Source of the DNA: a virus
Virus record (IMG/VR): IMGVR_UViG_3300021420_000059
Span: 1-45,863 of that record
DNA: 45,863 nt
Direction: 5' to 3' (one strand)
Each line of letters opens with the position of its first letter. Within the stretch, counting starts at the first letter, position 1. Shown piece by piece: positions 3 through 45,863 of this stretch. Position numbers and translations under genes: made by a program. Below the pieces are notes generated by a model that saw only the letters and a list, made by a program, of their open reading frames with translations, ran no database searches and was not told the origin of the DNA.

Positions 3-353
3 CCGCCGGACGACGGCCCGGACAAGTACGGCAAGCGGCACTTCGACCCCGAGAACCTGAAGCGCGGGCAGCAGGACTTCATCGACCAGCTCGAGTGGTG
101 CGTGCATTGCGTGAAGCGCGCCAATCCAGGCGACGACGAGCAGAGCGCCACGCGGCGCATGATGCTCATTGCCTCCATCGTCACGACGTACATGGTACTG
201 CGCGGCTCGAACCTCGCGCAGATCCCCGACGCGTTCCCGCAGTTCGTGCAGAATCCCCTCGTGATCGAGGCCATGAAGGGCGCCCATCACACTATGCGAT
301 TCGTCGAGTCGCTGGTCCGCGGATGCAAGCCAAATGAAAATAACTCGCGGTGA
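3..353 (+). CDS. Unknown protein, 5' end outside window
   Basis: The frame is open from the window edge to a TGA at 351-353, giving about 116 visible residues; the true start lies upstream. Internal GTG codons at 95 and 102 exist, but the residues before them are in good protein register (acidic and basic residues, FIDQLEW), so the gene probably begins further left. The middle is helical and mildly hydrophobic (IASIVTTYMVL), perhaps a buried helix rather than a membrane span. I do not recognise the family. It is followed by a 223-base gap with palindromes. Confidence 0.55.
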   Translation, partial: PPDDGPDKYGKRHFDPENLKRGQQDFIDQLEWCVHCVKRANPGDDEQSATRRMMLIASIVTTYMVLRGSNLAQIPDAFPQFVQNPLVIEAMKGAHHTMRFVESLVRGCKPNENNSR

Positions 354-576: not shown

Positions 577-1347
577 ATGACAAACATCGGCCCGAATATT
601 TCAGTTGGCGTTCTCGCCGGCCAGTCCGTGGTCGGCGGTACCGCGACTGCCCTCGGAGTCGTAGCTGCCAAGTCGTTCGCATACGACGAAGCGCAGTACG
701 TCTACTCCGTGTCCGTTCCCTTCGTACTCGGCACCGGCTCAGGTGTTGCGGCTGCCACCGGCGGCGTCAGCAACTTCGGCGGCACCCTCGCCCCCGGCGC
801 CTGCGCCATCGGCCCGGCCTTCGCGGCCCGTCAGCTTCGCTCCCTCACCGTGCTGTCATACAGCACCGGCGCGGGCACTGGCTGCGCGACCTCAGGCGAC
901 AACATTCGGTTGTTCCTGATCTCCCCGAACGCGCAGGCGTTCGGCACGGCGACCGCAACGTCACTGTACGTGACGGCGGGCATCAACACCGGCACTCTGT
1001 ACGGCACCCAGACCACGACCACGATCGGCGCGAACCTCGTGACCATCACGTGCGCGGCTTGGAACTTCTCGGGCACGACCACCCCTGTACAGGGCACTGG
1101 CTCGTTCGCGGGCGGCTACAATCCGGCGTACCTGCAGATCGCGGGCGGAACGTGCACGGTTGTCGTGGCATGCGGCGCTGGCACGAACACGCAGGTTGGG
1201 TACGTGTTCCCCGTCGGTGCACAGGGCGGCCTGAGCGTCGGCGCGGGCGACCTTCTCATCGTCTCCAAGAGCGCGACCGATACCTCGGCCGCCTACCTCG
1301 GAGAGGCTGAGTTCACCTACACCCCGGGCGCGAACGTCACTCGGTAA
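577..1347 (+). CDS. Beta-rich Gly/Thr/Ala protein, possible decoration or surface protein
   Basis: A 256-residue protein with a good ribosome binding site (GAGAGGA, 5 bases before ATG). It is rich in Gly, Thr, Ala, Ser and Val in alternating patterns typical of all-beta virion or surface proteins, with six or more cysteines spread along it (GACAIG, GTGCATSG, GTCTVVVACG). I see no clear signal peptide and recognise no family. It forms its own transcription unit, with a long structured leader before it and a strong terminator after it, and it reads opposite to the other structural genes. This suggests high, separately timed expression. A capsid decoration protein or a secreted or displayed protein are both possible. 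Confidence 0.75.
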   Translation: MTNIGPNISVGVLAGQSVVGGTATALGVVAAKSFAYDEAQYVYSVSVPFVLGTGSGVAAATGGVSNFGGTLAPGACAIGPAFAARQLRSLTVLSYSTGAGTGCATSGDNIRLFLISPNAQAFGTATATSLYVTAGINTGTLYGTQTTTTIGANLVTITCAAWNFSGTTTPVQGTGSFAGGYNPAYLQIAGGTCTVVVACGAGTNTQVGYVFPVGAQGGLSVGAGDLLIVSKSATDTSAAYLGEAEFTYTPGANVTR

Positions 1348-1374
1348 TTTAATCGGCATCAAGACCGACACACG

Positions 1375-1414
1375 GGGGCCCGCAAGTCTAAAGCTTGACG
1401 GGCCCCTTCCTTTT
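1375..1414 (+). terminator. Rho-independent terminator after the 577 gene
   Basis: GGGGCCCG (1375-1382) pairs perfectly with CGGGCCCC (1399-1406). An inner CAAG/CTTG stem extends it with one bulged A, and TTCCTTTT follows at 1407-1414. This is a classic intrinsic terminator and isolates the 577 gene from the LPS island. Confidence 0.85.
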
Positions 1415-1451
1415 GGGTACCCTGATCGGCCGTTCGTCCCCAGGAAGACGT

Positions 1452-2015
1452 ATGACCTGGTCCCCGCTGTCCGCAGCCTGCCAAAGTGAAACCCCCAAGA
1501 CCCGTTGGCGCGCAGTCCCGTTCACCGCGGGCAAGGGCCTGGACATAGGCTGCGGCAAGGACCGCCTGTTCGACACCGAGTACGTGGTGGGCGTGGACAG
1601 CTTCGACGCCGCAGCGCAGGGACTCTCGGTCGCGGCCAGCATGAAGGTTGACGCGCGCGACCTGTCGCAGTTCGCCGGCGGCACGTGGGATTTCGTCTAC
1701 AGCTCATTCCTCCTTCACCTCTTTCCCTATCAGGACGTGCCGAATGTACTGCGCGAGTGGATGCGGCTGCTCAAAGCCAATGGAAACCTGGTTCTTTACC
1801 TCCCCGACGCGGACACGTTTCCCAAGTGCGCGGAGCCGGCGCTTGGCATCGGAGCGGAGGGCGGTTGCAACCCCGGACAGCAATGGAATGTCACGTACGA
1901 GCGAGTGGCCGCCGCGCTGGAAAAGGTTGCCTTCAACTGGGATCTGATCTACTTTGAGAAGTGCTGCGCCGACGATGAGTACGGCCTGTTCTTCGTGATT
2001 CGGAGGCTCAAGTGA
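1452..2015 (+). CDS. Class I SAM-dependent methyltransferase
   Basis: 187 residues from ATG 1452, preceded by AGGAAG; an in-frame TTG at 1395 sits inside the terminator and is rejected. The motif LDIGCG (residues 30-35) is the SAM-binding loop, followed by VVGVDSFD (acidic end of strand 2) and a long FSSFLLHL/LLKANGNLVLYLPD region typical of Methyltransf_11-like enzymes. The substrate cannot be read from sequence. It is coupled by a GTGA overlap to a sugar C-methyltransferase-like gene, so a sugar or glycan substrate is the likeliest inference. Such enzymes are frequent in surface-polysaccharide clusters. Confidence 0.8.
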   Translation: MTWSPLSAACQSETPKTRWRAVPFTAGKGLDIGCGKDRLFDTEYVVGVDSFDAAAQGLSVAASMKVDARDLSQFAGGTWDFVYSSFLLHLFPYQDVPNVLREWMRLLKANGNLVLYLPDADTFPKCAEPALGIGAEGGCNPGQQWNVTYERVAAALEKVAFNWDLIYFEKCCADDEYGLFFVIRRLK

Positions 2016-3196
2016 GACGAAACCTTTGCCGCATGTGCGGCGGTCCCACGCAGCGCATCATCGACTTGGGCGAGCAGCCCCCGAGCAACGCGCTCCTCAC
2101 GTGCTCCATCCAGCCCGAGCAGGTCTACCCGCTCACCATCATCGTCTGCGAGCGCTGCGCGCTCGTGCAGACCGGCTACGATGTGCCCCCCACAGAACTC
2201 TTTGGCGCAGGATACCCGTACTTCAGCGGGCAGTCCGAGCAGTGGCGCGCGCACTGCTACCAGTACGTGCAGAACACGATCAGGCGCATCTCGCTGGGCA
2301 AGGACGATCAGGTCATTGAGATCGGCGGCAACGACGGCACGCTGCTGCAATACTTCCCGAAGGACATTCGCACGTTGAACGCCGAGCCGTCCGAGAGCGT
2401 GGCGAACGCGGCCATCAAGGCCGGCGTGGAAACGCAGATCACGGGGTTCGAGAGCAAGTACGTGTGGCCGAAGGCCGACCTCATCATCGCCAACAACGTG
2501 ATGGCGCACACGCCCGACCCCGAGGACATGATTAAGGCCGTGGCCGAGACGCTCAAGATCAACGGCATTCTCACCGTGGAGTTCCCTTGGATCGTGAACA
2601 CGATCGAAGGCATGCAATTCGATACGATGTACCACGAGCACTACTCGTACCTTGGCATCATGCCGCTGCAGAGCCTGCTGCTGAAATACGGGCTCCTTAT
2701 CTACGACGTGGAGCATCTGCCCTTTCACGGCGGCAGCTTGCGCATCTGGGTGTGCCGCACGAACTTCCGGCCCGACCCGCTGCGCTCGCAGGCCGTGGCG
2801 CTGTGCGCGGCGCGCGAGAAGGCGCTTGACTACTCGCAGTTCGAGCGCAACGCGCAGCACACGCGCGCGGAGCTCGTACGCTTCGTTGACTACAACCGCA
2901 GCTATCGTATCTACGGATACGGAGCCGCAGCCAAAGGCAACACGCTCCTGAACTACTGCGGGATCAACGCGCTGGACATTCCAATGGTGGCCGACACCAC
3001 GCCGGCGAAGCAGGGCAAGTGGCTCCCCGGCTCGCGCATTCCCATCGTCACGGAAGACACGATGCTTGCGCAGCACCCCGCGTACATCTTAATTTTGGCA
3101 TGGAATTGGAAATCGGAAATTACAGCGAAGCTCAGAGCGCGCGGATACACAGGGAAATTCGTAACTGCCATTCCTCGTTTGGAAGTGTTCGAATGA
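2012..3196 (+). CDS. Zinc-binding sugar C-methyltransferase-like protein
   Basis: 394 residues, GTG start overlapping the previous stop. Three parts match the NDP-hexose C-methyltransferase architecture (Methyltransf_13, SAM domain, Methyltransf_14). These are an N-terminal zinc site (C6, C9, C46, C49), a SAM domain with VIEIGGNDGT (101-110) and the family signature YHEHYSYL (207-214), and a C-terminal domain with YGAAAKGNTLLNYCGI and DTTPAKQGKWLPG. Characterised relatives add a methyl group to carbon 3 of dTDP-keto-sugars (TylC3, EvaC types). Here the sugar is unknown. The gene lies next to a glycosyltransferase and heptose-type genes, so modification of a sugar destined for LPS or a glycan is inferred. 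Confidence 0.82.
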   Translation: MRRNLCRMCGGPTQRIIDLGEQPPSNALLTCSIQPEQVYPLTIIVCERCALVQTGYDVPPTELFGAGYPYFSGQSEQWRAHCYQYVQNTIRRISLGKDDQVIEIGGNDGTLLQYFPKDIRTLNAEPSESVANAAIKAGVETQITGFESKYVWPKADLIIANNVMAHTPDPEDMIKAVAETLKINGILTVEFPWIVNTIEGMQFDTMYHEHYSYLGIMPLQSLLLKYGLLIYDVEHLPFHGGSLRIWVCRTNFRPDPLRSQAVALCAAREKALDYSQFERNAQHTRAELVRFVDYNRSYRIYGYGAAAKGNTLLNYCGINALDIPMVADTTPAKQGKWLPGSRIPIVTEDTMLAQHPAYILILAWNWKSEITAKLRARGYTGKFVTAIPRLEVFE

Positions 3197-3360
3197 GCAA
3201 AGCCGCCGATTACTTCGCTTTCATCAGCAGCAAAGTGGCTGGCGCCGCCGATCGCTGCCGCTACATTGATCTGCCGTGGAAGCTGAACGATGGCAAATGG
3301 GAGCGCGGAGCGCAGTGCATATTGAGGGCCCACCACTCAGGGGAGCATGTGTTCCCATGA
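3193..3360 (+). CDS. Small unknown protein (55 residues)
   Basis: ATG 3193 overlaps the preceding TGA (ATGA) and its own stop overlaps the next ATG at 3357 (ATGA), so it fits exactly between two real genes. The protein carries a C...H..H pattern near its end (QCILRAHHSGEHVF), which might bind a metal. No family recognised. The two-sided coupling is the main support. Confidence 0.6.
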   Translation: MSKAADYFAFISSKVAGAADRCRYIDLPWKLNDGKWERGAQCILRAHHSGEHVFP

Positions 3361-4481
3361 GTCGGCACGTCTTCAGCCATCGCGCGGAACTGAATCCGAA
3401 GAAGCTGCCCACGGCGGCCGTCGTGCGCTATGGCGCCTTCGGGGACCTGATTCAGGTCATGTCCGTCGTTACGGGGCTGAAGAAGCAGGGCTTTCACGTC
3501 ACACTCATCTGCCAGCACCCGGCAGCCGAGATCGTCCTCCACGATCCCACGCTCGACCGCCTCATCGTACAGACGCAGAACCAAGTGCCGATTCATCAGC
3601 TCGGCATGTTCTGGATGTGGTTTCAGTCTCATGGCGCGCCCGGCGGCAAGCCCTTCGACAACTGGATCAACCTTACGGAGTCCGTGGAGTCGAACCTGCT
3701 CATCAGCCCCGGCAACGTGAAGTTTGTGTGGCACCCCAAGGCGCGCCACCAGTTCATGAATCACAACTACCTTGAGTTTCAGCACACGATTGCAAACGTG
3801 CCGTACGAGCCGAGCTTCAAGTTCTACCCCACCGACGACGAGCGCCGCTGGCGTGACCAAGAACGCTCGCGCATGCGCAAGCACGGCATCGACAAGTTCA
3901 TCCTCTGGGGCCTCGCCGGCTCGAGCCGCACGCACAAGGTCTACCCGCACGCGACCGCGATATGGGACCACGTCCTGCAGTACTACGGTACGTGGGGCGT
4001 CGCCACAGTGGGCGACGCGAGTTGCGTCGAGTTCGAAAAGGGCTACGCCGACAAGCCGCGCATGTGGTGTACGGCCGGCCGCTGGTCGATCCGGCAGGCG
4101 CTCGCCATGCTGGAGATCGCGGACGTGGTCGTGGGCCCGGAGACGGGCGTCATGTCGGCCGCGGCTTGGTATCCGATGCCGAAGGTGCTGTTTTTGAGTC
4201 ACTCAACTCGTGAAAATCTAAGCAGAGATTGGATCAATACAACGTCGCTGTGGGCACCGTTTACGGCGTGTCCTGGGCGCGGCAAGAACGAGGCCCAAGC
4301 ATGTCACACCATGCTTCCATCTTTTGAGGGTTGTCTCCGTAATGCGAAGTACGGTGTGGCGCAGTGCACGGTCGAGGTGCGGCCTGAATGGACGTGGGAA
4401 GTTTTGCAAAAATGTATGAATACCGGGGAGGCGCCTGATTGGCTGCCGCCTTCTGGAGAATGGAGGCCCGGGCTTGAGTAA
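3357..4481 (+). CDS. GT9-family (heptosyltransferase-like) glycosyltransferase
   Basis: 374 residues from ATG 3357 (overlaps the previous stop); a longer upstream frame runs back into the 55-residue gene and is not used. The N-terminal motif VVRYGAFGDLIQ (22-33) matches the GDLI/GDxV loop of ADP-heptose:LPS heptosyltransferases (WaaC/WaaF, GT9). The C-terminal Rossmann half has WGLAGSSRTHKVYP and the nucleotide-site pattern VVGPETGVMSAAA followed by KVLFLSHS. Known members transfer L,D-heptose from ADP-heptose to LPS core at the inner membrane. The presence of two HldE-like genes 550 bases and further downstream supports a heptose donor, although GT9 enzymes can use other sugars. Confidence 0.8.
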   Translation: MSRHVFSHRAELNPKKLPTAAVVRYGAFGDLIQVMSVVTGLKKQGFHVTLICQHPAAEIVLHDPTLDRLIVQTQNQVPIHQLGMFWMWFQSHGAPGGKPFDNWINLTESVESNLLISPGNVKFVWHPKARHQFMNHNYLEFQHTIANVPYEPSFKFYPTDDERRWRDQERSRMRKHGIDKFILWGLAGSSRTHKVYPHATAIWDHVLQYYGTWGVATVGDASCVEFEKGYADKPRMWCTAGRWSIRQALAMLEIADVVVGPETGVMSAAAWYPMPKVLFLSHSTRENLSRDWINTTSLWAPFTACPGRGKNEAQACHTMLPSFEGCLRNAKYGVAQCTVEVRPEWTWEVLQKCMNTGEAPDWLPPSGEWRPGLE

Positions 4482-4893
4482 AGGCATCACACAAAAACTA
4501 TGGTATGCGAAGAACCGAGTGCGGCTTCTTGCGTTGGCGAACACGCCTGCACGCAAAGCGCAACGAGCCGAGTACAATCGAAAATACCGACAATTGCACA
4601 AGGCCCGACTGGCGGCCCAGCAAAAGGCTTGGCGCCAAGTCAATCAAGATCGAGTTCTTGCGCAACCGCATCGTAAATTACCTGCACCCACTCGGCCTAA
4701 ACCAGACAAGTGTGAGATATGCGGGCGCCTTCCGACGAGAAAATGGCGCTCTTTGTGCCTAGATCATTGTCACGCCACAGGGCGCTTTCGAGGATGGCTG
4801 TGCCATTCTTGCAATAGGCACTTGGGCGGACTTGGCGATAACATAGCCGGGCTGCTGCGCGCCCTGAAGTACTTAAATGACAACGAAACCTAA
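4474..4893 (+). CDS. HNH / recombination endonuclease VII-like nuclease
   Basis: 139 residues from TTG 4474, with GGAGG seven bases upstream and an 8-base overlap with the preceding gene. The C-terminal half has the endonuclease VII zinc/HNH pattern: CEICG, LDHCHATGRFRGWLCHSCN, HLGGLGDN and a final ALKYL helix. The N-terminal 60 residues are basic (KRKYRQLHKARLAAQQ), like the DNA-binding lead-in of homing HNH proteins. Family members cut DNA junctions or act as free-standing homing nucleases. Its place inside a sugar-gene run suggests a mobile insertion, but a packaging or repair role cannot be excluded. Confidence 0.82.
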   Translation: MSKGITQKLWYAKNRVRLLALANTPARKAQRAEYNRKYRQLHKARLAAQQKAWRQVNQDRVLAQPHRKLPAPTRPKPDKCEICGRLPTRKWRSLCLDHCHATGRFRGWLCHSCNRHLGGLGDNIAGLLRALKYLNDNET

Positions 4894-5047
4894 GCTTTGT
4901 TCACTTTGTAAGGGGCGAGGAGTGATACCTGAAACAGAGCCCGAGATGGCGCTGCGCTGGGAAGGCTCGTTGCGGGCGCACGTAGAATCGAAAACTCTCA
5001 AGCAGGGCAGTGGCTGCCCGAGGTGTCTCGGCCGTGGACGCGAATGA
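4877..5047 (+). CDS. Small DnaJ-type zinc-finger protein (56 residues)
   Basis: ATG 4877 to TGA 5045-5047, 56 residues, overlapping the end of the HNH gene. Two CxxCxGxG-type repeats (CSLCKGRG near the start, CPRCLGRG near the end) match one zinc site of a DnaJ cysteine-rich domain. The middle is an acidic-to-basic helix. Short proteins with this pattern are common in phages and presumably hold one zinc ion; the function is unknown. It also overlaps the start of the kinase gene. Confidence 0.7.
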   Translation: MTTKPKLCSLCKGRGVIPETEPEMALRWEGSLRAHVESKTLKQGSGCPRCLGRGRE

Positions 5048-5885
5048 AATCTTAGCCGCCATCCCCGGCAAGCACATTGCCGTCGTCGGGGACCCCATCC
5101 TCGACGAATACCACTTCGGGCGCGTCGAGCGCATATGCCCCGAGGCGCCCGTACCAGTTTTCATTCGCGAGCGCAGCGAGCTGCGTCCCGGGGGCGCGGC
5201 CAATGTTGTCAACCAGCTCCGGGCGCTCGGCTGCCATACGCTCGAGCTGTATTCACCGCGGGCGTCCGTCAAGACACGTTTCATGGCCGGCAGCCACATG
5301 CTGCTGCGCGTCGACGACGACAGGTTCTACACGCCGACCGCAGACGATGTGTACGGCGTATACAAGGCGATCCAGCAAGCTCCGGCCCTCGATGCCTTGA
5401 TTCTGTCCGATTACGCCCACGGCTGGCTGTCCCACGAGATGTGTCAGGCGGCCATCGACGCCGCCCACCGCCGCGGGTTGCCCGTAATCATCGACCCTAA
5501 GAAGGACGACTGGCACAAGTTTTACAGCCCGATTGGGCGCGCGTTGATTTGTCCGAGCGGGAGCGAGTATATTGCGGGATTCCCGTCCGGCATGGACGTG
5601 CTGCACAAGCAGGGCGCCGCCGGCATGACGCTTCACGAAAACCGCAAGGATTATGGACGCACCCCCGAACAGCACACCCACATCCCCGCCATTGCCCGGC
5701 ACGTCTTCGATGTCACGGGCGCCGGGGACACCGTCGTGGCTGTTGTTGCGGCTGCCGTTTCCGCTGGTGCGACCTACCTCGAAGCTGCTCGTCTCGCAAG
5801 TGTGGCTGCTGGCTACGTGGTGGGCGAAGTGGGGACCACGGTTGTGTCGTTTGAAAGACTGAAGGAGCTCGTCAATGCCGACTAG
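5034..5885 (+). CDS. PfkB-type kinase, HldE N-terminal domain homologue (heptose-7-phosphate kinase-like)
   Basis: 283 residues from GTG 5034 (GAGG upstream); a GTG at 5010 is a weaker alternative. The sequence follows E. coli HldE domain I closely: RICPEAPVPV (33-42), GGAANVVNQLRALG (53-66), LILSDYAHGWLS, VIIDPKKDDW, then FDVTGAGDT (225-233) with the catalytic Asp in GAGD, and VVGEVGTTVVS. HldE domain I phosphorylates D-glycero-D-manno-heptose-7-phosphate at carbon 1 on the way to ADP-heptose. It appears to lack about 25 residues between LICPSGSEY and GMTLHEN relative to HldE, so specificity may differ. It overlaps the cupin gene by 11 bases and forms an operon with it and the nucleotidyltransferase. 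Confidence 0.85.
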   Translation: MDANEILAAIPGKHIAVVGDPILDEYHFGRVERICPEAPVPVFIRERSELRPGGAANVVNQLRALGCHTLELYSPRASVKTRFMAGSHMLLRVDDDRFYTPTADDVYGVYKAIQQAPALDALILSDYAHGWLSHEMCQAAIDAAHRRGLPVIIDPKKDDWHKFYSPIGRALICPSGSEYIAGFPSGMDVLHKQGAAGMTLHENRKDYGRTPEQHTHIPAIARHVFDVTGAGDTVVAVVAAAVSAGATYLEAARLASVAAGYVVGEVGTTVVSFERLKELVNAD

Positions 5886-6231
5886 GATTCCGAAAATATG
5901 GGGGCACGAAGTCGTCCTCCACAACCACGCGTACTGCTGCAAGCTGCTCGTGTACGATGGCGTGCGCACCAGCTCCAAGCACTTCCACAAGGAGAAGCAC
6001 GAGACCTTCGTCGTCGTGCGCGGCACGTTCGACATCGAATGGGAGCAGCTGGGCACGGACAACAAGGGCGCGCAGAAGTTCGGCCCGGGCGCTGCGCTCG
6101 TGCTGGAGCCCATGACGGTGCACAGGGTGACGTGTGTTGACCCCGCCGGCGGCATGATCGTCGAGGCCTCGAGCCACGACGACCCCGAGGACTGCGTGCG
6201 GCTGGAGCCCAGTGTCAACCCATACGCGTAG
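5875..6231 (+). CDS. Small cupin, sugar-phosphate isomerase-like
   Basis: 118 residues, a single cupin barrel. It has the KIWGHEVVLHNHAYCCKLL lead-in seen in type II mannose-6-phosphate isomerase-like cupins, then HFHKEKHETFVVVRG (cupin motif 1: H, H, E, G) and PMTVHRV (motif 2 His). These residues would hold a divalent metal. In bacterial polysaccharide loci such cupins isomerise or epimerise activated or phosphorylated sugars. Here it sits between the heptose-kinase-like and nucleotidyltransferase-like genes with overlaps on both sides, so a step on the same sugar is inferred. The exact reaction is unknown. Confidence 0.75.
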   Translation: MPTRIPKIWGHEVVLHNHAYCCKLLVYDGVRTSSKHFHKEKHETFVVVRGTFDIEWEQLGTDNKGAQKFGPGAALVLEPMTVHRVTCVDPAGGMIVEASSHDDPEDCVRLEPSVNPYA

Positions 6232-6796
6232 AATCGGGCTGTGCAACGGGGTCTTTGACCTGTTCCACGCAGGCCATCGGAGATTTCTATGGGAAGCCTC
6301 AAAGTTCTGCGATTACCTGATCGTGGCAGTGAACGACGATGCCTCTGTGAAACGCCTGAAGGGCGCGAGCAGGCCCTTCGACAACTTGCACTACCGCATG
6401 GATCGCGTGAGCGAGTTCGCGGACATGGTGGTCCCGTTCAACGGCACGCTGCTCGATCTGGAATTCAGCTTCCACCCCCACGTCGTGATCCGCGGCTGGG
6501 ATCAAAAATTTGATTGGTGGAAACGCAGCGTAGGTGTGGTAGTCTTCCTTCCCCGCTTCGGGGATGTCTCAACTACAGGAATTTCGCAATGTTCACCTCA
6601 ATCTGGACCTACTTGCAGCGACTCGTTGGCAATGGCAAAGCAGCCACCATCGGCATCTTCGCTTTCATCCTCATCCTTTGCCTCGCGTTCTGCCACAAGG
6701 CTAACGCCGGAGAAGTTGACGTCCGACTGGGCAGCTCTTTCGGAACCCAAGGCACCGGTCCCGTTCTTGGACTACAGCTCAAAGCCCCGCTGTTAG
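6212..6796 (+). CDS. Cytidylyltransferase-fold enzyme, HldE C-terminal domain homologue (ADP-heptose synthase-like)
   Basis: GTG 6212 start, overlapping the cupin gene. The first 124 residues follow HldE domain II: NGVFDLFHAGH (12-22, with the HxGH nucleotide motif), LIVAVNDDASVKRLKGASRP, VVIRGWDQK and the closing GDVSTTGI (117-124; STT at 120-122). HldE domain II joins heptose-1-phosphate to AMP. After the STT motif the frame stays open for some 70 Ser/Pro-rich residues that look like another gene read out of frame: the PagL-like gene begins at 6589 in a different frame. The natural enzyme probably ends near base 6590; the listed stop is simply the first one in frame. A lost stop codon or an assembly error is possible. 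Confidence 0.8.
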   Translation: MSTHTRRIGLCNGVFDLFHAGHRRFLWEASKFCDYLIVAVNDDASVKRLKGASRPFDNLHYRMDRVSEFADMVVPFNGTLLDLEFSFHPHVVIRGWDQKFDWWKRSVGVVVFLPRFGDVSTTGISQCSPQSGPTCSDSLAMAKQPPSASSLSSSSFASRSATRLTPEKLTSDWAALSEPKAPVPFLDYSSKPRC

Positions 6797-7116
6797 GCTT
6801 CAATCAGGTCAATTGGTACGCTGGCACGCTGCTCTGGGGCGCCACCCGCTACAACAACCAGGACGTACAGTCAAACTGGGACTGGCACACCGGGGTCGAG
6901 AGCTGTCACGGCAGCTTCTGCGCCGGCATCGGCATGGTGTATCTGCAGCGCATCGACGCGATCAACGGAGCGCACACAAACTTCATGCTGCAGTTGTCAT
7001 ACCGTCCGCATTGGGGTAGGCTCTCGTCGATCGACGTGGCCCACATCAGTGATGCGGGCACGACGCCTGTGAATATCGGCCGGCAAGCGGCTTTGGTGAG
7101 CATCCGGTTGCAGTAA
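6589..7116 (+). CDS. Exported PagL-like lipid A deacylase / outer-membrane protein
   Basis: 175 residues from ATG 6589 (AGGA upstream). Residues 1-40 form a signal peptide: basic start, hydrophobic IGIFAFILILCLAF (21-34) and cleavage motif ANA at 38-40. The rest is a small beta-barrel-like sequence. The end, DVAHISDAGTTPVNIG (149-164), resembles the PagL active-site stretch HxSNAG...PN.G, giving candidate catalytic His152 and Ser154; the usual Asn is Asp155, and the Glu that follows in PagL is not evident (Arg or Gln there). PagL removes the 3-O acyl chain of lipid A in the outer membrane. The fit is good in layout but modest in identity. It closes the sugar/LPS run. Confidence 0.65.
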   Translation: MFTSIWTYLQRLVGNGKAATIGIFAFILILCLAFCHKANAGEVDVRLGSSFGTQGTGPVLGLQLKAPLLGFNQVNWYAGTLLWGATRYNNQDVQSNWDWHTGVESCHGSFCAGIGMVYLQRIDAINGAHTNFMLQLSYRPHWGRLSSIDVAHISDAGTTPVNIGRQAALVSIRLQ

Positions 7117-7819: not shown

Positions 7820-10335
7820 CCCTCGTCGCCTCTCTCGGCAAGTACGACGCGAAGGACCCGCGTTGCAACGCCATCATTACGAAGACGTGGCGTGGGGACT
7901 TCGCCGCGTTCGTCGCTGCGATCCTGAAGAACGTCCCCGAGACCGACAACAAGGCCTCCGCGGGCTGGGTGTGCGGAGCCGAGTTCACCAAGTCGCATCG
8001 CCACGGCGACAATTTCGTGGCGCGCCATTTCCTGAGTCTTGACTATGATCATATCCTTCCCGCTCAGCTCGAAGCTGTTGTTGCTGCGTGTCGAGCCACC
8101 GCTTTCCTCGCCTATACCACGTGGTCTCATACTGCTGCAGCGCCTCGTGTTAGAGCTTGGATACCGCTATCCCGACCTGTTTCTCGCGATGAGTTCGAAG
8201 CAGTATCACGCCGTTTTGCGAGTCGCGCAGGCATTGAGCTTGCAGCACGGGAAAGTCACACCGTCGCGCAGTTCATGTACCGCCCCGCCAGTAAAACGGG
8301 CGTCCCGTTCCAACACTGGCAAGACACGACGGCGCCGTACCTCGACGTCGACAAAGTCCTAGGAGAATACGATGACTGGAAAGACCGTAGTCAGTGGCCT
8401 CGCCGAGTGGATGAGCGCGAACTGGGGCCCAGCGCTGGAAAAGCTGAGGACCCGCGCGAAAAGCCTGGAATCGTCGGGGACTTCTGCCGCGCCTTCAGCA
8501 TTCGACAAGCTATCGAGCGATTTGAACTCCCGTATCGACGCGGAAGTTCTGAAGACCGTTGGACTTACACCGAAGGAAGCCGACCGGATGGAGCAGTCAT
8601 CTACGACGACGACACGAAACTCCATTCCCACCACGATACAGATCCTGCGAGCGGGCAGCACAACGCCTATGATCTCGTGCGATTGCACCGATTCGGAGCT
8701 CTCGATTCTTTTGACGGTGATCTACCGCTTGCTCGACGAGCTTCGTCCGCGGCAATGGAAGTTTTCGCTCGTGCACTCCCCGAGCTCGCCGAAGCCGATT
8801 TCGCTTCCCTTGGTTTTAACGACCTCACAGCAGGGAACAGCATGGTGGGCGGCGGCCGGGAACAGCAACCTGTGCCCGAGCTGCGGCCAGCTGAACGTCA
8901 GCATCCCGCGGCTGGGCTACTACCATGTCTGCCTGCCGAAATCCCTGTTGCAACCTCCGTCACCTCCGACCTCGAAAACGCCCGCCGCATCCAGCGCAAA
9001 TTCGGGCAGGAACTCTTCGCGGTCGGCCAAGCGTTCTTCTCGTGGCAGAAAACGCACTGGGTCAAAGACGACGGACCGGTAATACGTCTGATCGCACAAC
9101 TTCCTACCCTTGTCGAGGCCGAAGCGGAGGGCCACGATGAAGACACCTCCAAGCAGCTGCGCAAGTGGTCCGCGCAGTGCAACATGGCGTCCACGCGCAA
9201 GACCTGTCTCGTCGAACTCAGTAATTTCCTAGACTTCAAGGCGGACAATCTCAATGCTGACCCCGGACTCTTTAATTGCCTGTCGGGAACGATTGACCTA
9301 CGAACTGGACAAATACGACCTCACAGAGCAGGAGATTTCATTACTTCGTGCGCACCTACGGAATATAGTCCTACAGCGCCGCGCAAGCGCTTTGATTCGT
9401 TCCTCCGCGAGATCTTCCGGGGAGACGAAGACATCATTGCCTTCGTCCAACGCTGGTTTGGCTATACCATCACCGGAGAGACTCGAGCCCACGCCATCGT
9501 CTTCCACGTCGGCGAAGGAGCCAACGGCAAGTCCAAGCTCATCGAAGCCATCGAAAATGCCATCGGAAGCTACGCTACTGCGGGACCTCGACAACTTCTT
9601 GCGCTGCGCACCAATGGTGGAGAAGCCGCCTCGCCCGAAGTGACGAAGCTCCTCGGTAAGCGCATGGTCACGCTGGTGGAGACCAACCGCAATGCCGTCT
9701 TCGACGACGGCCTGCTCAAGAACCTGACCGGGGGCGATCGGCTCACGGCGAGGAATCTCTACGAGGGGTACTTCGACTGGAAGCCCACGCACAAGCTGCA
9801 GCTCTTCACGAACTACGAGCCGCGCATCACGGGGCAGGACCGCGGACTGTGGCGCCGGCTCTACTTCATCGAGTACAAGGCCTCCTACGGTCTCAAGGCC
9901 GAGATCGAGCAGGGCATCGCGGAATTCCTCGAGGACGGAGGGCTTGACAAAAAGCTGGCGGCCGAGGCCCCCGGCATTCTCGCGTGGCTGGTCGAGGGCG
10001 CCCGGCAGTGGTATATCCAGGGCCTGAACCCGCCTCCGGTCGTTCTGCGCCTGAAACAGGCCTACAAGGACCGGCAGGACGTCATAGGACGCTTCCTAGC
10101 CGCCCGCGCCCAGCCCCAGACCGGAAGTCGGGTGCCCCTGACGCAGGGCACAGCGGCCCTCTACGGGGCGTATATGGGCTGGACGAAGGCGAACGGGCAC
10201 CGGCCGCTGGAGTCCCAGAACTTCACCCGGGAGGTCCTCAGGGGGCGCCCGGGGCTCAAATGGGTCCAATGGACCGACAAGGGCATCGAATACGAGGGGA
10301 TCGAGGGGCTGAAGCTGCGGGAGGACGGGGCGTGA
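7816..10335 (+). CDS. Replicative primase-helicase (AEP/RepB-type primase fused to D5/P4-type helicase)
   Basis: 839 residues from ATG 7816, coupled to the previous stop. The N-terminal part looks like an archaeo-eukaryotic primase: LSLDYDH (Asp76, Asp78 as metal ligands), TWSH (102-105) and VRAWIPLSRPVSRDEF (112-127). Next comes a conserved stretch, DRWTYTEGSRPDGAVIYDD and SHHDTDP...AYDLVRLHRFG, seen in many phage virulence/D5 primases. The C-terminal half is a superfamily 3 helicase of the P4/D5 type with Walker A GEGANGKS (566-573), then LVETNR and TARNLYEGYFDWKPTHKLQLFTN. It should unwind the fork and lay primers for the family A polymerase encoded downstream. Codon use drifts to lower GC between about 8040 and 8800. 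Confidence 0.9.
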   Translation: MTLVASLGKYDAKDPRCNAIITKTWRGDFAAFVAAILKNVPETDNKASAGWVCGAEFTKSHRHGDNFVARHFLSLDYDHILPAQLEAVVAACRATAFLAYTTWSHTAAAPRVRAWIPLSRPVSRDEFEAVSRRFASRAGIELAARESHTVAQFMYRPASKTGVPFQHWQDTTAPYLDVDKVLGEYDDWKDRSQWPRRVDERELGPSAGKAEDPREKPGIVGDFCRAFSIRQAIERFELPYRRGSSEDRWTYTEGSRPDGAVIYDDDTKLHSHHDTDPASGQHNAYDLVRLHRFGALDSFDGDLPLARRASSAAMEVFARALPELAEADFASLGFNDLTAGNSMVGGGREQQPVPELRPAERQHPAAGLLPCLPAEIPVATSVTSDLENARRIQRKFGQELFAVGQAFFSWQKTHWVKDDGPVIRLIAQLPTLVEAEAEGHDEDTSKQLRKWSAQCNMASTRKTCLVELSNFLDFKADNLNADPGLFNCLSGTIDLRTGQIRPHRAGDFITSCAPTEYSPTAPRKRFDSFLREIFRGDEDIIAFVQRWFGYTITGETRAHAIVFHVGEGANGKSKLIEAIENAIGSYATAGPRQLLALRTNGGEAASPEVTKLLGKRMVTLVETNRNAVFDDGLLKNLTGGDRLTARNLYEGYFDWKPTHKLQLFTNYEPRITGQDRGLWRRLYFIEYKASYGLKAEIEQGIAEFLEDGGLDKKLAAEAPGILAWLVEGARQWYIQGLNPPPVVLRLKQAYKDRQDVIGRFLAARAQPQTGSRVPLTQGTAALYGAYMGWTKANGHRPLESQNFTREVLRGRPGLKWVQWTDKGIEYEGIEGLKLREDGA

Positions 10336-12680: not shown

Positions 12681-13056
12681 GTTGGACCGAATCATCGAGC
12701 TATTGGAGGCCTGCAATCGGCCGGCGCAGCCCCCAGTGGACAATGCCCACGTGGCGCCCGGCTGCGAGAAATTCGCAAACCCTACGCCAGCGTCGCCGGA
12801 AAAGAAGACGCGCGCAAAGCCGGCTGCGACTGCTCCGGCCCCGGCCTCTGCGACCGCTGCGCCCCCGGCCCAGACCACCAGTGTTGCCGCTGCTACACTT
12901 GACGACGTCCGCGTCGCCCTCGTGACGCTCTCGTCCAAGACCGGCAGCCGTGCGAAGTCGGACGAGATCCTCGCCAAGCACAACGCGCGAGTGACGGGCG
13001 ATCTGAAGCCCGAGCAGTATGCGCAGGTCGTTGCCGCGTGTCAGAGCGCCGGCTAA
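12664..13056 (+). CDS. Unknown protein with helical C-terminal module
   Basis: 130 residues from ATG 12664 (GGGAGACC upstream). A short N-terminal helix (IEAKLDRIIELLEACN) is joined by an Ala/Pro/Lys linker to a C-terminal module, LDDVRVALVTLSSKTGSRAK...LKPEQYAQVVAAC. That module resembles small helical tails found on phage recombination or ssDNA-annealing proteins. The linker is clearly disordered. It precedes the recombination genes, so a helper of ssDNA-binding proteins is a fair inference. Confidence 0.55.
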   Translation: MTIEAKLDRIIELLEACNRPAQPPVDNAHVAPGCEKFANPTPASPEKKTRAKPAATAPAPASATAAPPAQTTSVAAATLDDVRVALVTLSSKTGSRAKSDEILAKHNARVTGDLKPEQYAQVVAACQSAG

Positions 13057-13529
13057 TGTTCGCGCGCGTCTGCTTCGACTACGATCCGCGCGGTCGCGGC
13101 GGAGCCGTCGGCTGGTTCAGGGGGTTCGACTTCCTGCGTCGCCGATGGGGCCTCGACCGCTCGACGGTGTTCGTGGACGGGGAACGATACCTGGATCGCT
13201 GGATCGTGTATCTGAACGGATACACGCTGCGGTTACACAGGTTCTGGCGCGGCGACGATGACCGGGCGAGCCACACGCATCCGTGGTGGTTCGTGACGTT
13301 TCCGCTCGGCGGCTACCTTGAGAAGCTCTTCGACGAGGGGCGCTACACCGGGCACCGCTTCGTTGAGCCGTGGCGCTTCCATTTCCGGCCGGCGCACTTC
13401 GAGCACTACGTGGTGCGCGGCCTTGACGGCGTGCCTTGGTGGACGATCGTGCTGACGGGGCCGAAGAACAACACGTGGGGCTTCTATCCGGAGCCCGGCA
13501 AGTTCGTCAACTGGAAGCAATGGCAGTGA
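13056..13529 (+). CDS. Cupin-like conserved phage protein
   Basis: 157 residues from ATG 13056, joined to the previous stop (TAATG). The middle carries LHRFWRGDDDRASHTHPWWFVTFPLGGYLEKLFDEG, with an HTHPW...GGY pattern like a metal-binding cupin motif, and HFRPAHFEHYVV further on. Proteins with this pattern are widespread in phages of Gram-negative hosts; their reaction is not known to me. It overlaps the YqaJ exonuclease start by ten bases. Confidence 0.6.
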   Translation: MFARVCFDYDPRGRGGAVGWFRGFDFLRRRWGLDRSTVFVDGERYLDRWIVYLNGYTLRLHRFWRGDDDRASHTHPWWFVTFPLGGYLEKLFDEGRYTGHRFVEPWRFHFRPAHFEHYVVRGLDGVPWWTIVLTGPKNNTWGFYPEPGKFVNWKQWQ

Positions 13530-20803: not shown

Positions 20804-23800
20804 TTAGTACTCCTGCTCTAGGTGTTCGTTGCCCTTCGCTACGTTGACGCCGGCCTGCGCCGTGGCCGCGTTGCGCGCCTTGCTCATCGCTCCGTGCGCT
20901 AAATTCTTGCCGATCGCCATGCCGGGATTGGCCTTGTTGAAGGCGTCGATACTCGGCTGGAGGCGGTCCATCTCTTTTTGGTCGCCGTTCAGCATCGCCG
21001 TCTCAAATTGGTTGGTCAGCGGATTATGCCGATCAGTGATGTCCTTGTCGATGTTCTTGATCGCGCTGTTGCGCGCGTAGGCATCCGCCATCTTCTGCGG
21101 CGTGAAGCCCACGCTCTGCAGAAAGAGATCCCTGTTGGTGATCTGATCCTTCGGCACCACGGGCTCTCCGGACATGTTGTTCGCGCCCTGCGTCGCGTAG
21201 CGCACGCTCTTGGCTAGCGCGGCCGCTTCCGGCGGCAGCATGTGCTCGAGCCCGCGTTCGGTGTTTCCCGTGCGCATCATGTCGATGCCGGCCGCCGCGT
21301 TCGTCGGGATGGCCGCGATCGGTCCGAGCAATTGCCCAAGGCCGTCCAGCATCTGCGCGGACGTGCTCTCTTCGCGACTCGGCGGCCTGTACCAAAGATC
21401 ATTGTAGCTCGCGCCGCCCGAGAGCGAGGCACCGCTTATGGCGCCTACCGGGCCGGTCATAATCGCATCGCCGGCGGTCTCTCCCAACGCATCGTTCAAA
21501 TGCTTGTGGAGTGCAGCGGTCATGTCGTAGGGCTGATCCTGGCTGCCCATTACCGTGTTCATGACTTTCTCGGCGATCCAATACAACGGCATGCCTGTGA
21601 CGCCTGCGAACATCGACATGCGCCCGATAAGACCGCCGAACGCAACTGCCGCGTCCTTGCGTGCTTGCGGGTCTGTCTCGGAAGCCGTCATGTCGCGGAA
21701 CTCGCGCGCGAGTCGGTACGTCACGCCCAAGGAGTACTGCTTGAAGAGACCGATGACCTTGGCGGTGTCGTTCTGCAGGTAGCGCGGACGATTGGCGTTC
21801 GTGTAGTCGAAGTGACTGTCCCACGTGATCTGTCGTGCGAGCTTCGCGGCATCCGCATGCCCCATGTCCGCCTGCCGTCCGAGCCGGTACGCGGCCAGAT
21901 GCGTCGTCATGCGGTTGTGGTTCTCCATTGCGTTGAAGAGAAAGCCGGCTGCCTTGGCGAACGCGGCATACGGGCCGTGGCCGATGGGGCCGCCTTGACC
22001 GCCGGAGGCCAGCATCTGGGTGTTGTTGTTGCTGAACACGCCCATGTCGGAGGCCTCATCGTGCGCGCGGCGCTCATCGCCTCGCAGCGTATCACCGAGG
22101 GATCCGTAGGACTTGGCCCACTGGCCGGTGGCCCGGCTGAGTTCCTTGCTGGCGCCGAGCCAGTTGAAGTGCTTCGCCAGCATCGGAGCTGCCAGCATGG
22201 GGTTCTGGGAGAAGATTCGGAAGGCCGTGGCCGGGGCTGCCCCCAAATACCAAGTGAAACCGAACTTCGTGAGGTTGGAGGCCAGCTGGCTCGCCCGCGG
22301 GTTCTTGATCCACTCGTACCGATCCTTGAGCTCGCGGGCCAGCTCCGGAGCCCAGCGGCCATCGGTCTGCGCGTTCTTGTCATCCGGGTTCTGCGCCGCC
22401 TTTTGCTCAAGCGCACGGGCATCCTGCTCGGCCCCGGAGAGCTTGCTCTCAAGCTGGTGGCCGTACTCGAGGCGCGCCAGCTGGTGCGCGCCGTGGAAGG
22501 AGTTGTAGGCAAAGGCGCGCAGCGAGTCTTGGGAATATCCCAGACGACCGACGCGGGAGATCATGTGCTTGCGCATGCTCATCTCAGGCATCGCGCGCAG
22601 GTACTGCTGCCAGATTTCCTTCTCGAGATCGCCCGAAGGGTCGGCGTCGTGGGCGAGGCCCATGACGTTGCGGACGAAGTCGGGGTCGATACGCTCCATC
22701 ATGGAATTCGTGTCCATGCGCTTGCCGCCATCAACGTCGAGCCCCTGCTTGCGCATCTCGGCCATCCATGCCTTCTGCTGGGCCCCGCTTTCGAACCGGG
22801 AGAAGGCTTTGGTGTTGCCGTTCTCGTCCTTGGCGTTAGCCCACAGGTCCCCAAAGCGCTGCAGCGGGAAGTACGGGCCCTTGACGGTATTCGACTCGAA
22901 GGACTTGCGTAGCTCCGCCATGAGGTTCTTCTTCGTCTCCCCGTCCGCATCGGTCTGCTCGATACGCGCCTTCAGGGCGTCGTAGACCTGCGAGCGCTTC
23001 TGCGCATAGTTGTCGCGCACCCGATTGTAGAGTTCCTTGCCCTTGTCATCGAGCTTGTTGTTGTAGTCGTCCTGCAATGATTTGTGCATCGCGCGCTGAT
23101 ACTTCTCGTCGCGGGCCGCCTCCGGATTCGCCGCGCGATCAGCAGCCGTGTATCGCTCTTCGTACGGTTTGGAGGGATCATGCCCGGCCATTGTGGAGGC
23201 AGTCATGAGGTCGCTTAAGGTGTGCCCGCGATCATCCTGCTTCGCGTTCCACTGCGACCACTCCTTGGCGAGGGCCGTGTCTCGCGTGTGCATCTGACCC
23301 TTGCGGCCTTCCATCGCGTCATGCGCGTCGATGAAGCCATGCAGGTTCGGCATCTTGTCCGCTGACATGAAGTCCGGCAGGTTCCGCAACCCGATGGCGC
23401 CGAGCACTTTGCGCGGCGCGTTGTCACGGAAGTCGCTCAGCGCTCCCTTCACGGATCGTATGAAGCCCGGGTTATAGTTCGCCTGCTCTTCCATCGTGCG
23501 GCCGAACTTGTGGCCCACCGCTAGCGGGTGGTCCGGGGCGTAGTGGTCTTCCATGTTCTTGTCGTCATTGTCCAGCGAGAAGCGCGCACCGCCGGAGGCC
23601 TTGTACTCCGCGCCGTCGCGCGCCGCCTTCAGGGGTTCCGCGCCGCTGACGTGGGCCTGCGCCTGCCGGATGAGGCGGGCGATGTCGTTGTCATTCCAGT
23701 GCTTCACGAGGCCGAGCTTGCGCAGGCCGCCCCGGACCGCGTCCGTGATGCGCTGCCAGTGCGAAGGATCGCGGTCCGGCACCGGCAGGTCCCCGTGCAC

Positions 23801-45244: not shown

Positions 45245-45689
45245 GGTTCTTGTTCCATGCTTCCACGGTGTCGCGCGAGTCCACGGTGTTCACGTTGTCT
45301 TGAAAGTCGCGCGGCATCTGTTCGATGTCGTAGGGGTCGATGATCCGACCGCGTGTCACGCCGAAGCGCTCGAGGATCTCGCCGGCGGCCTTGCGGCAGC
45401 GCGGCAGGAGCGCGGCGATGTTGTCGCGCTTCATGTGGAGGCGGTAGCCCATGCGCTTGTTCAGCCCGGGGGCGCTGAGGACGACGCACTCGTTGCGCGT
45501 GTCGACGTTGACTTCCCACTGCCGGTTTGGGTAGGTACGGACGAGGTCTTCCCCGATTTTCTTGGCGATGTGATACTCGAGGAGCGCCGCCTTCTTCTCG
45601 TGGCTCTCTTCCGGCAGCACCTGATTGAAGTCGATGATGGGCGCGTTGCCCTTCTCCCCCTGATAGAACCGCGCTTTGGCTTCGCTCAT
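45234..45689 (-). CDS. Conserved protein between terminase and portal (151 residues)
   Basis: ATG 45689 overlaps the terminase stop (ATGA). Mixed alpha/beta soluble protein (EYHIAKKIGEDLVRTYPNRQ, WEVNVDTRNECVVLSAPGLN, RCRKAAGEILERFGVTRG). No family recognised, but a gene of this size at this place is common in related phages; a packaging helper is possible. Confidence 0.65.
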   Translation of the reverse strand: MSEAKARFYQGEKGNAPIIDFNQVLPEESHEKKAALLEYHIAKKIGEDLVRTYPNRQWEVNVDTRNECVVLSAPGLNKRMGYRLHMKRDNIAALLPRCRKAAGEILERFGVTRGRIIDPYDIEQMPRDFQDNVNTVDSRDTVEAWNKNRGK

Positions 45690-45863
45690 GTCGGGGCCTC
45701 CGGCTCAAATGACTCATCCTCGGGTTCGAAGCTGTTGCGTATCAGGTCGCCCAGCTCCTCGGCGAAGGTGTGGCACAGCGCATCAGCCTCGTCGGGCGAC
45801 GCTAAACCGCGCTTTTTCATATCCTTCTTCCGCTCAAGCCTTATACGTTCTTTGTCGTCGTAG
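45686..45863 (-). CDS. terL: Terminase large subunit, C-terminal end only
   Basis: The last 58 codons are visible; the rest lies beyond the right edge. DDKERIRLERKKDMKKRGLA followed by SPDEADALCHTFAEE is the characteristic C-terminal nuclease-domain ending of phage large terminases (the conserved Asp in SPDxADA). The last residues are acidic (EPEDESFEPEAP). The enzyme cuts and pumps DNA into heads. Confidence 0.85.
   Translation of the reverse strand, partial: YDDKERIRLERKKDMKKRGLASPDEADALCHTFAEELGDLIRNSFEPEDESFEPEAPT

Follow-up and report, generated by a model that had tools for sequence, protein, structure and literature searches.

Which molecule receives the sugar when a phage carries its own run of glycosylation genes? 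The question is raised by the virus record IMGVR_UViG_3300021420_000059 (45,863 nucleotides; this whole record is called the window below), whose plus-strand run at 1452-7116 the initial annotation had read as an island for remodelling lipopolysaccharide (LPS). In that reading, two methyltransferases, a GT9 glycosyltransferase, HldE-like kinase and nucleotidyltransferase genes, a cupin and an exported PagL-like deacylase would make an ADP-heptose-type donor, transfer it to the LPS core and trim lipid A. The run exists and is coding, and profile searches confirmed six of the seven named genes, all but the deacylase. The best reading of the locus, however, is a glycan island in which the donor-supply module can be swapped, with a virion protein as the likeliest acceptor, a role for the island that we put somewhat short of an even chance. 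Three genes had been overlooked: the endonuclease VII-like gene (4474-4893), the GT2 C-terminus (3-353) and the open reading frame (ORF) ORF577 (577-1347). The features are as follows, where L003 and L004 denote the two nearest relatives, which lie on 63-64 kb contigs, and MT1 and MT14 the two methyltransferases.

3..353, plus strand: C-terminal part of a GT2-family glycosyltransferase, homologous to L003 4138-5139 (PF00535, E 1.2e-6) and cut by the left end of the window.
577..1347, plus strand: ORF577, a Thr/Ser/Gly-rich protein directly upstream of MT1; L003 has a homologue in the same place, and the C-terminus matches a Thr-rich protein of the capsid region.
1452..2015, plus strand: MT1, a class I S-adenosylmethionine methyltransferase (PF08241, Methyltransf_11, E 3e-9).
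2012..3196, plus strand: MT14, a methyltransferase of the nucleotide-sugar 3-C-methyltransferase type (Methyltransf_13/14, E 2e-41; PF08421, PF13489 and PF08484).
3357..4481, plus strand, start ATG 3357: GT9-type glycosyltransferase of GT-B fold (PF01075, E 1e-3; Foldseek).
4474..4893, plus strand: recombination endonuclease VII-like protein, a probable insertion (PF02945, E 2e-17).
5040..5885, plus strand: HldA/HldE-type heptose-7-phosphate kinase, short phage form (TIGR02198, E 4e-62).
5875..6231, plus strand: isomerase-like cupin of the phage sugar cassette (phrog_7851, E 6e-14).
6212..~6586, plus strand, start GTG 6212: nucleotidyltransferase of the HldE C-domain type (TIGR02199, E 6e-23), with the frame open to 6796.
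6589..7116, plus strand: exported, probably beta-rich protein, formerly called PagL (signal segment; coding-like frame).

Phage sugar genes are usually filed by annotation as LPS-modifying cargo; here, the gene order of the relatives points to the virion. An alignment-based scan of viral contigs returned 162 GT9 relatives, and the 80 that were kept make, together with L002, a set of 81 loci (L002-L082), many of them fragmentary and mutually related; counts over them are therefore not counts of independent events. Judged by sequence, the window GT9 belongs to a phage-specific family, present in these 162 viral contigs and new here. Of the 81 loci, 50 encode MT1 and GT9 as one fused protein and 16 as separate proteins; in the remaining 15, MT1 was not seen. 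In all 57 loci that include the major capsid gene, GT9 lies 0.5-8 kb downstream of it on the same strand, and in 46 loci a Thr/Ser-rich family, c172, stands directly after the capsid gene and upstream of MT1-GT9. This capsid-region protein consists of 17-29% Ser plus Thr, compared to 8-15% in the other phage proteins measured. This placement of MT1-GT9 in the capsid region of related phages counts against LPS remodelling.

In the window itself, no Thr-rich gene follows the capsid gene, and it is ORF577 that precedes MT1. The 41 C-terminal columns of ORF577 match c172 (hhalign probability 78%, P 1.9e-5); as controls, 29 other neighbour families gave probabilities of at most 1.6%, and the score of 39.8 stands against a best score of 17 in 60 column shuffles. 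Similarly, the c172 profile finds the L003 homologue of ORF577 at 2e-6 and the window ORF577 weakly, at 0.026. ORF577 showed no match to c126, another Thr-rich family among the neighbours, when the two were compared. Since the window capsid gene lacks such a neighbour and ORF577 precedes MT1, the pairing of a Thr-rich gene with MT1/GT9 seems to survive relocation, and the sequences are most simply explained if the Thr-rich gene and MT1-GT9 have travelled jointly, as one unit. Such joint movement suggests an enzyme and its substrate, and ORF577 is a candidate virion (head decoration) protein and acceptor.

The next question is what the transferase could transfer. On its own, the window GT9 matches PF01075 with E 1e-3 and 19 bits, below the 22-bit cut-off, while 26 of 44 family members match this profile, the best with E 8e-11. 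Direct sequence comparison with solved structures gave nothing convincing, and it was structure prediction that settled the fold. The AlphaFold model (pLDDT 91) has a GT-B fold, and Foldseek with this model retrieved the GT9 structure 3tov (E 5e-11), WaaF (E 2e-10), WaaC (E 2e-7) and TibC (E 2e-6). Residues D30, K194 (after an S/A-x3 segment), E262-T-G and four Cys are invariant in all 44 members, the Cys spacing in the window being C-x10-C-x9-C-x10-C. The four Cys are a possible counterpart of the four-Cys iron finger of the BAHT protein heptosyltransferases, but GT9s outside this family may have comparable Cys sets. The GT9 was not assigned to the LPS heptosyltransferase equivalog TIGR02193, for which it gave 22.5 of 185 bits. 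TibC heptosylates a protein (PMC4358343), and the modelled GT9 fold is compatible with an ADP-heptose-type donor without choosing between a lipid and a protein acceptor.

The fold is also where the case for host LPS or surface-glycan remodelling begins. According to this explanation, which is the initial reading minus the deacylase, the kinase and nucleotidyltransferase would raise ADP-heptose, and GT9 and GT2 would add a methylated sugar to the LPS core or O-chain, so that the receptor would be changed and superinfection, or re-adsorption to debris, blocked. That the GT9 fold is nearest to GT9, WaaF and WaaC, and the kinase nearest to HldA, speaks for it, and modification of the O-antigen by phages is an established strategy (PMC11436027). 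On the other hand, the methyltransferase MT14 does not sit well with it. The zinc-binding, methyltransferase and C-terminal domains of MT14 are the architecture of sugar 3-C-methyltransferases, and homology agrees with this assignment, the best solved relatives being the D-mycarose 3-C-methyltransferase 4rv9 (E 9e-64) and TcaB9. These enzymes act on deoxysugars linked to deoxythymidine diphosphate (dTDP), the nearest solved ones adding the methyl group at C3 of antibiotic sugars, D-mycarose for example; we know of no C3 methylation of this type as an LPS-core reaction.

The donor genes were examined in the same way. The kinase matches TIGR02198 with 210 bits (E 4e-62), below the 345-bit equivalog cut-off, and its best solved relative is the D-beta-D-heptose 7-phosphate kinase HldA, 4e84 (E 2e-37). 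In the alignment, its GAGD (PfkB catalytic) and PEAPVPV motifs are intact; it lacks one segment that the full-length L086 HldE contains, and the same segment is missing from cyanophage kinases. The nucleotidyltransferase matches TIGR02199 with 81 bits (E 6e-23), below the 181.5-bit equivalog cut-off; its HxGH motif is intact (HAGH), and it also resembles cytidylyltransferases. By sequence, both proteins clearly belong with HldE, and in this respect the initial annotation was borne out, as it was in the likeness of the GT9 fold to WaaF and WaaC; its third expected family, PagL, was not recovered (see below). The cupin is 58% identical to the cupins of L003 and L004, and its profile matches D-lyxose and mannose-6-P isomerases. 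GmhA-type SIS domains, HAD phosphatases (TIGR01656, which is not GmhB-specific) and HldD families gave no match in the 45.9 kb of this incomplete record; therefore, a full heptose pathway needs the host or missing sequence.

The nucleotidyltransferase frame runs approximately 70 codons beyond the natural end of the family, over 6587-6796, and overlaps the next gene; its tail at 6587-6793 is not coding-like, and the run-on reflects a lost stop or an indel. This raises the possibility of decaying or stuffer cargo, in which parts of the run, such as the run-on nucleotidyltransferase, would be recent non-functional acquisitions. The frame has no natural stop, an endonuclease gene splits the set, and for the LPS genes of cyanophages 'stuffer DNA' has been considered as one possibility (PMC3037559). 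However, the kinase, nucleotidyltransferase and cupin retain conserved motifs and phage-like codon use, and the GT9 family invariants are intact, so that we consider decay highly improbable. The endonuclease VII gene, which interrupts the sugar-gene run, has a G+C content at third codon positions of 0.53, compared to 0.69-0.90 in the other genes measured. In L003, an HNH-like gene (8553-9014) occupies a different point of the same island, and the pattern looks as if homing endonucleases repeatedly target the island.

Is the donor set itself a novelty? The kinase, nucleotidyltransferase and cupin set is not new, because it is a common phage cassette that has been published, in T4-like cyanophages, as LPS genes (PMC3037559, PMC2984593). 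By tblastn, the cassette was found in the cyanophages P-SSM2 and S-CAM1 in the order nucleotidyltransferase, kinase, HAD-type phosphatase, cupin and HldD-like epimerase, among tail-fibre genes; that of Sf-FS3 is similar, with extra genes in between. The cyanophage cassette adjoins tail-fibre and neck genes, along with 2-oxoglutarate oxygenases and carbamoyltransferases. As a separate observation, the P-SSM2 gene PSSM2_311 (L083 12716-13060) carries the annotation 'phosphoheptose isomerase', yet its match is to HAD-type capsule phosphatases (TIGR01689) and not to the GmhA SIS domain; the label, which also occurs in the S-CAM1 and Sf-FS3 records, is on this evidence a probable misannotation. A single-sequence scan of viral contigs with the kinase found none, and an alignment with the cyanophage kinases led to more than 569 kinase-encoding stretches. 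Among the best 80 of these, a nucleotidyltransferase lies nearby in 70, a cupin in 66 and an epimerase-family gene in 66. The window cassette is a reduced version of this common cassette. Its combination with MT1, MT14 and GT9 was seen nowhere else among the loci compared; the earlier impression that no phage set has this exact combination holds within that scope, but not for the cassette, which is common and published. A change of surface against other phages, that is, a defence against superinfection, has long been suggested for the cyanophage clusters (PMC2984593), and this precedent supports the LPS explanation.

Among the closest relatives, the donor supply is different. The GT9 proteins of L003 and L004 are 68% and 64% identical to that of the window, and in both contigs MT14, GT9, the cupin and primase stand in the window order; L003 also has MT1, the ORF577 homologue and GT2, and L004 is cut there. 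In the L003 and L004 contigs, searches for a kinase and a nucleotidyltransferase found neither, and both contigs carry a relative of dTDP-glucose 4,6-dehydratase (L003 16280-17290, L004 8249-9223) that was not found in the window. That the closest relatives carry a dTDP-sugar dehydratase and no heptose genes weighs against LPS remodelling. The kinase nearest to that of the window (40%) is in L111, where positions 1068-5140 hold a GmhA-type isomerase, a kinase and a nucleotidyltransferase; the adjacent terminase genes have relatives in the GT9 phage L007. In addition, a second cupin-like protein (phrog_4786) is encoded at 13038-13529 of the window and has counterparts in L003 and L004, a short distance behind the dehydratase gene; it may belong to the same sugar pathway.

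This variation also bears on a further explanation, in which the sugar would go, depending on the phage, to several or other acceptors (multiple surfaces, DNA or a small molecule), and the exported protein would act in exclusion at the outer membrane, unrelated to the sugar. Among the relatives, donor modules and tailoring genes differ, and the setting of the cyanophage cassette, described above, is in line with this idea. On the other side, genes for hydroxymethyl-pyrimidines or for DNA modification did not appear in the window, where no systematic search for them was made. We regard this explanation as improbable.

The last gene of the run was assigned to PagL in the initial annotation. Its export is supported, by a hydrophobic signal segment ending in AxA and by coding in its own frame, from ATG 6589 rather than 6514; its likeness to PagL did not survive. 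Neither a Pfam scan nor a search with PF09411, run over the window and 50 related viral records, supported it, with no match up to E 10. The PagL reference set comprised 11 aligned sequences, ten plasmid PagL relatives and the 2ERV sequence. Against these 11, hhalign returned a probability of 1% (P 0.047); with a family hidden Markov model, 6.6% of the shuffles of the mature protein scored as well; and with a position-specific scoring matrix of the C-terminal active-site block, the protein ranked 1,612th among the ORFs scanned, 21% of shuffles being as good. BLASTP against the 2ERV sequence did not support the assignment either. The AlphaFold model, built without an alignment, has predicted strands but a pLDDT of 48, too weak for a fold search. 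Like PagL lipid A 3-O-deacylase, the product is a small exported beta-rich protein, and locally its HISDAG...N.G resembles HYSNAG...N.G. This likeness is limited to the one short string, HISDAG versus HYSNAG, and lies within chance; unlike PagL, the protein has no profile support and carries Asp at the equivalent of Asn129 and Cys at the equivalent of Glu80. No relatives of the exported protein were found in viral contigs, phages or one genome-contig scan, and literature searches on phage ADP-heptose or PagL genes yielded nothing. On sequence grounds, the assignment as a PagL lipid A deacylase is thus not supported, and no flippase, polymerase or acyl-handling gene was recognised in the run, both of which tell against LPS remodelling. 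Of the picture first drawn, the coupling of sugar-donor genes to glycosyltransferases stands, the LPS core as acceptor is unproven, and the trimming of lipid A falls away. As a whole, we rate LPS remodelling as possible but rather unlikely.

In the record, a plus-strand block extends over 1-18.9 kb and a minus-strand structural block over 19-45.8 kb; a primase, a DNA polymerase, a helicase, the major head protein and a portal were recognised, which identifies the window as phage DNA. Both ends cut genes, so the record is incomplete: on the left the GT2 gene, whose full form is found in L003, and on the right a gene at 45686-45862 that is related to a Vibrio phage protein and, by position, is the probable large terminase. 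Compared to the contigs of its two nearest relatives, approximately 18 kb of the phage may be missing. Phage records searched at the DNA level with the window gave no match. A single ORF of 1,796 residues at 20804-26194 probably encodes a large virion-associated protein. An Rz-like spanin is present in L003, and this sequence suggests a Gram-negative host, a point in favour of LPS remodelling.

Based on the results presented above, a virion acceptor with an exchangeable donor supply would work as follows. MT1 and the GT9-type transferase would form the conserved transfer core, helped by GT2; MT14 and the cupin, as an isomerase or epimerase, would tailor the sugar; and the kinase and nucleotidyltransferase, as the exchangeable module, would turn host-derived heptose-7-phosphate towards an ADP-heptose-type donor, the GmhA, GmhB and HldD steps coming from the host or from the missing part of the genome. 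The acceptor would be the Thr-rich ORF577 or its capsid-region counterpart, so that progeny heads would carry a methylated sugar, with masking of the virion or altered adsorption as the benefit. Several points weigh against this proposal. ORF577 and its capsid-region relatives have neither an annotated function nor proteomic support as virion proteins, and the match between ORF577 and c172 spans only 41 C-terminal columns. The GT9 family is mostly known from LPS synthesis, the best solved folds for this protein are GT9/WaaF rather than TibC, and a position in a late operon is compatible with surface modification late in infection too. In the other 81 GT9 loci, neither a kinase nor a nucleotidyltransferase turned up, so that the link between GT9 and heptose rests on the window, the fold likeness and L111; the locus counts, moreover, come in many cases from fragments and kin and are not independent.

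A broader form of the proposal is offered tentatively, and we think it doubtful as it stands. A widespread lineage of uncultured phages would use a dedicated methyltransferase-heptosyltransferase fusion to glycosylate a Thr-rich decoration protein of the head, drawing on donor modules that can replace one another (heptose kinase and nucleotidyltransferase, or dTDP-sugar dehydratase and 3-C-methyltransferase), as a counterpart of TibC-type protein heptosylation. Both partners in the proposal can be tested, MT1-GT9 as the enzyme and the Thr-rich protein encoded behind the capsid gene as the acceptor. Should it hold, phages whose hosts are probably Gram-negative would possess a defined system for glycosylating the virion, and numerous 'LPS' genes in viromes would need re-reading.

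How does the island compare with known systems? It shares the kinase and nucleotidyltransferase domains and motifs with bacterial HldE/HldA, but its genes are split, the kinase is shortened and the scores lie under the curated equivalog cut-offs. With the cyanophage 'LPS' cassette of P-SSM2, S-CAM1 and Sf-FS3 it has in common a separate nucleotidyltransferase and an HldE-type kinase, lacking the same segment, near a phrog_7851 cupin; the cyanophages have an HldD-like epimerase, a HAD-type phosphatase and a tail-fibre setting, none of which the window shares; it has GT9, MT1 and MT14 in addition. The BAHT protein heptosyltransferases (TibC/AAH; PMC4358343) resemble the window GT9 in the GT-B fold (E 2e-6), four conserved Cys on the C-terminal side and an S/T-x3-K segment. 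They differ in Cys spacing and in a TibC-type N-terminal beta-barrel, which the window protein lacks (its GT-B domain starts near residue 18 in the model), and the sequence-family match of GT9 is to PF01075. The MT1-GT9 phages of IMG/VR (L002-L082) have the same GT9 family (36-68% identity) and the same MT1, usually as one fused protein; their MT1-GT9 generally lies behind the major capsid gene, whereas in the window, L003 and L004 the genes stand beside primase with MT14 and the cupin, and only the window has the kinase and nucleotidyltransferase. Finally, the Corndog phages are unrelated in phage and host, and no HldE-type donor genes are noted for them, but they likewise carry an O-methyltransferase and glycosyltransferases among head genes: the O-methyltransferase and three glycosyltransferase genes are flanked by portal and protease, and glycans on the capsid were proposed by the authors (PMC4351075), a precedent for the virion reading.

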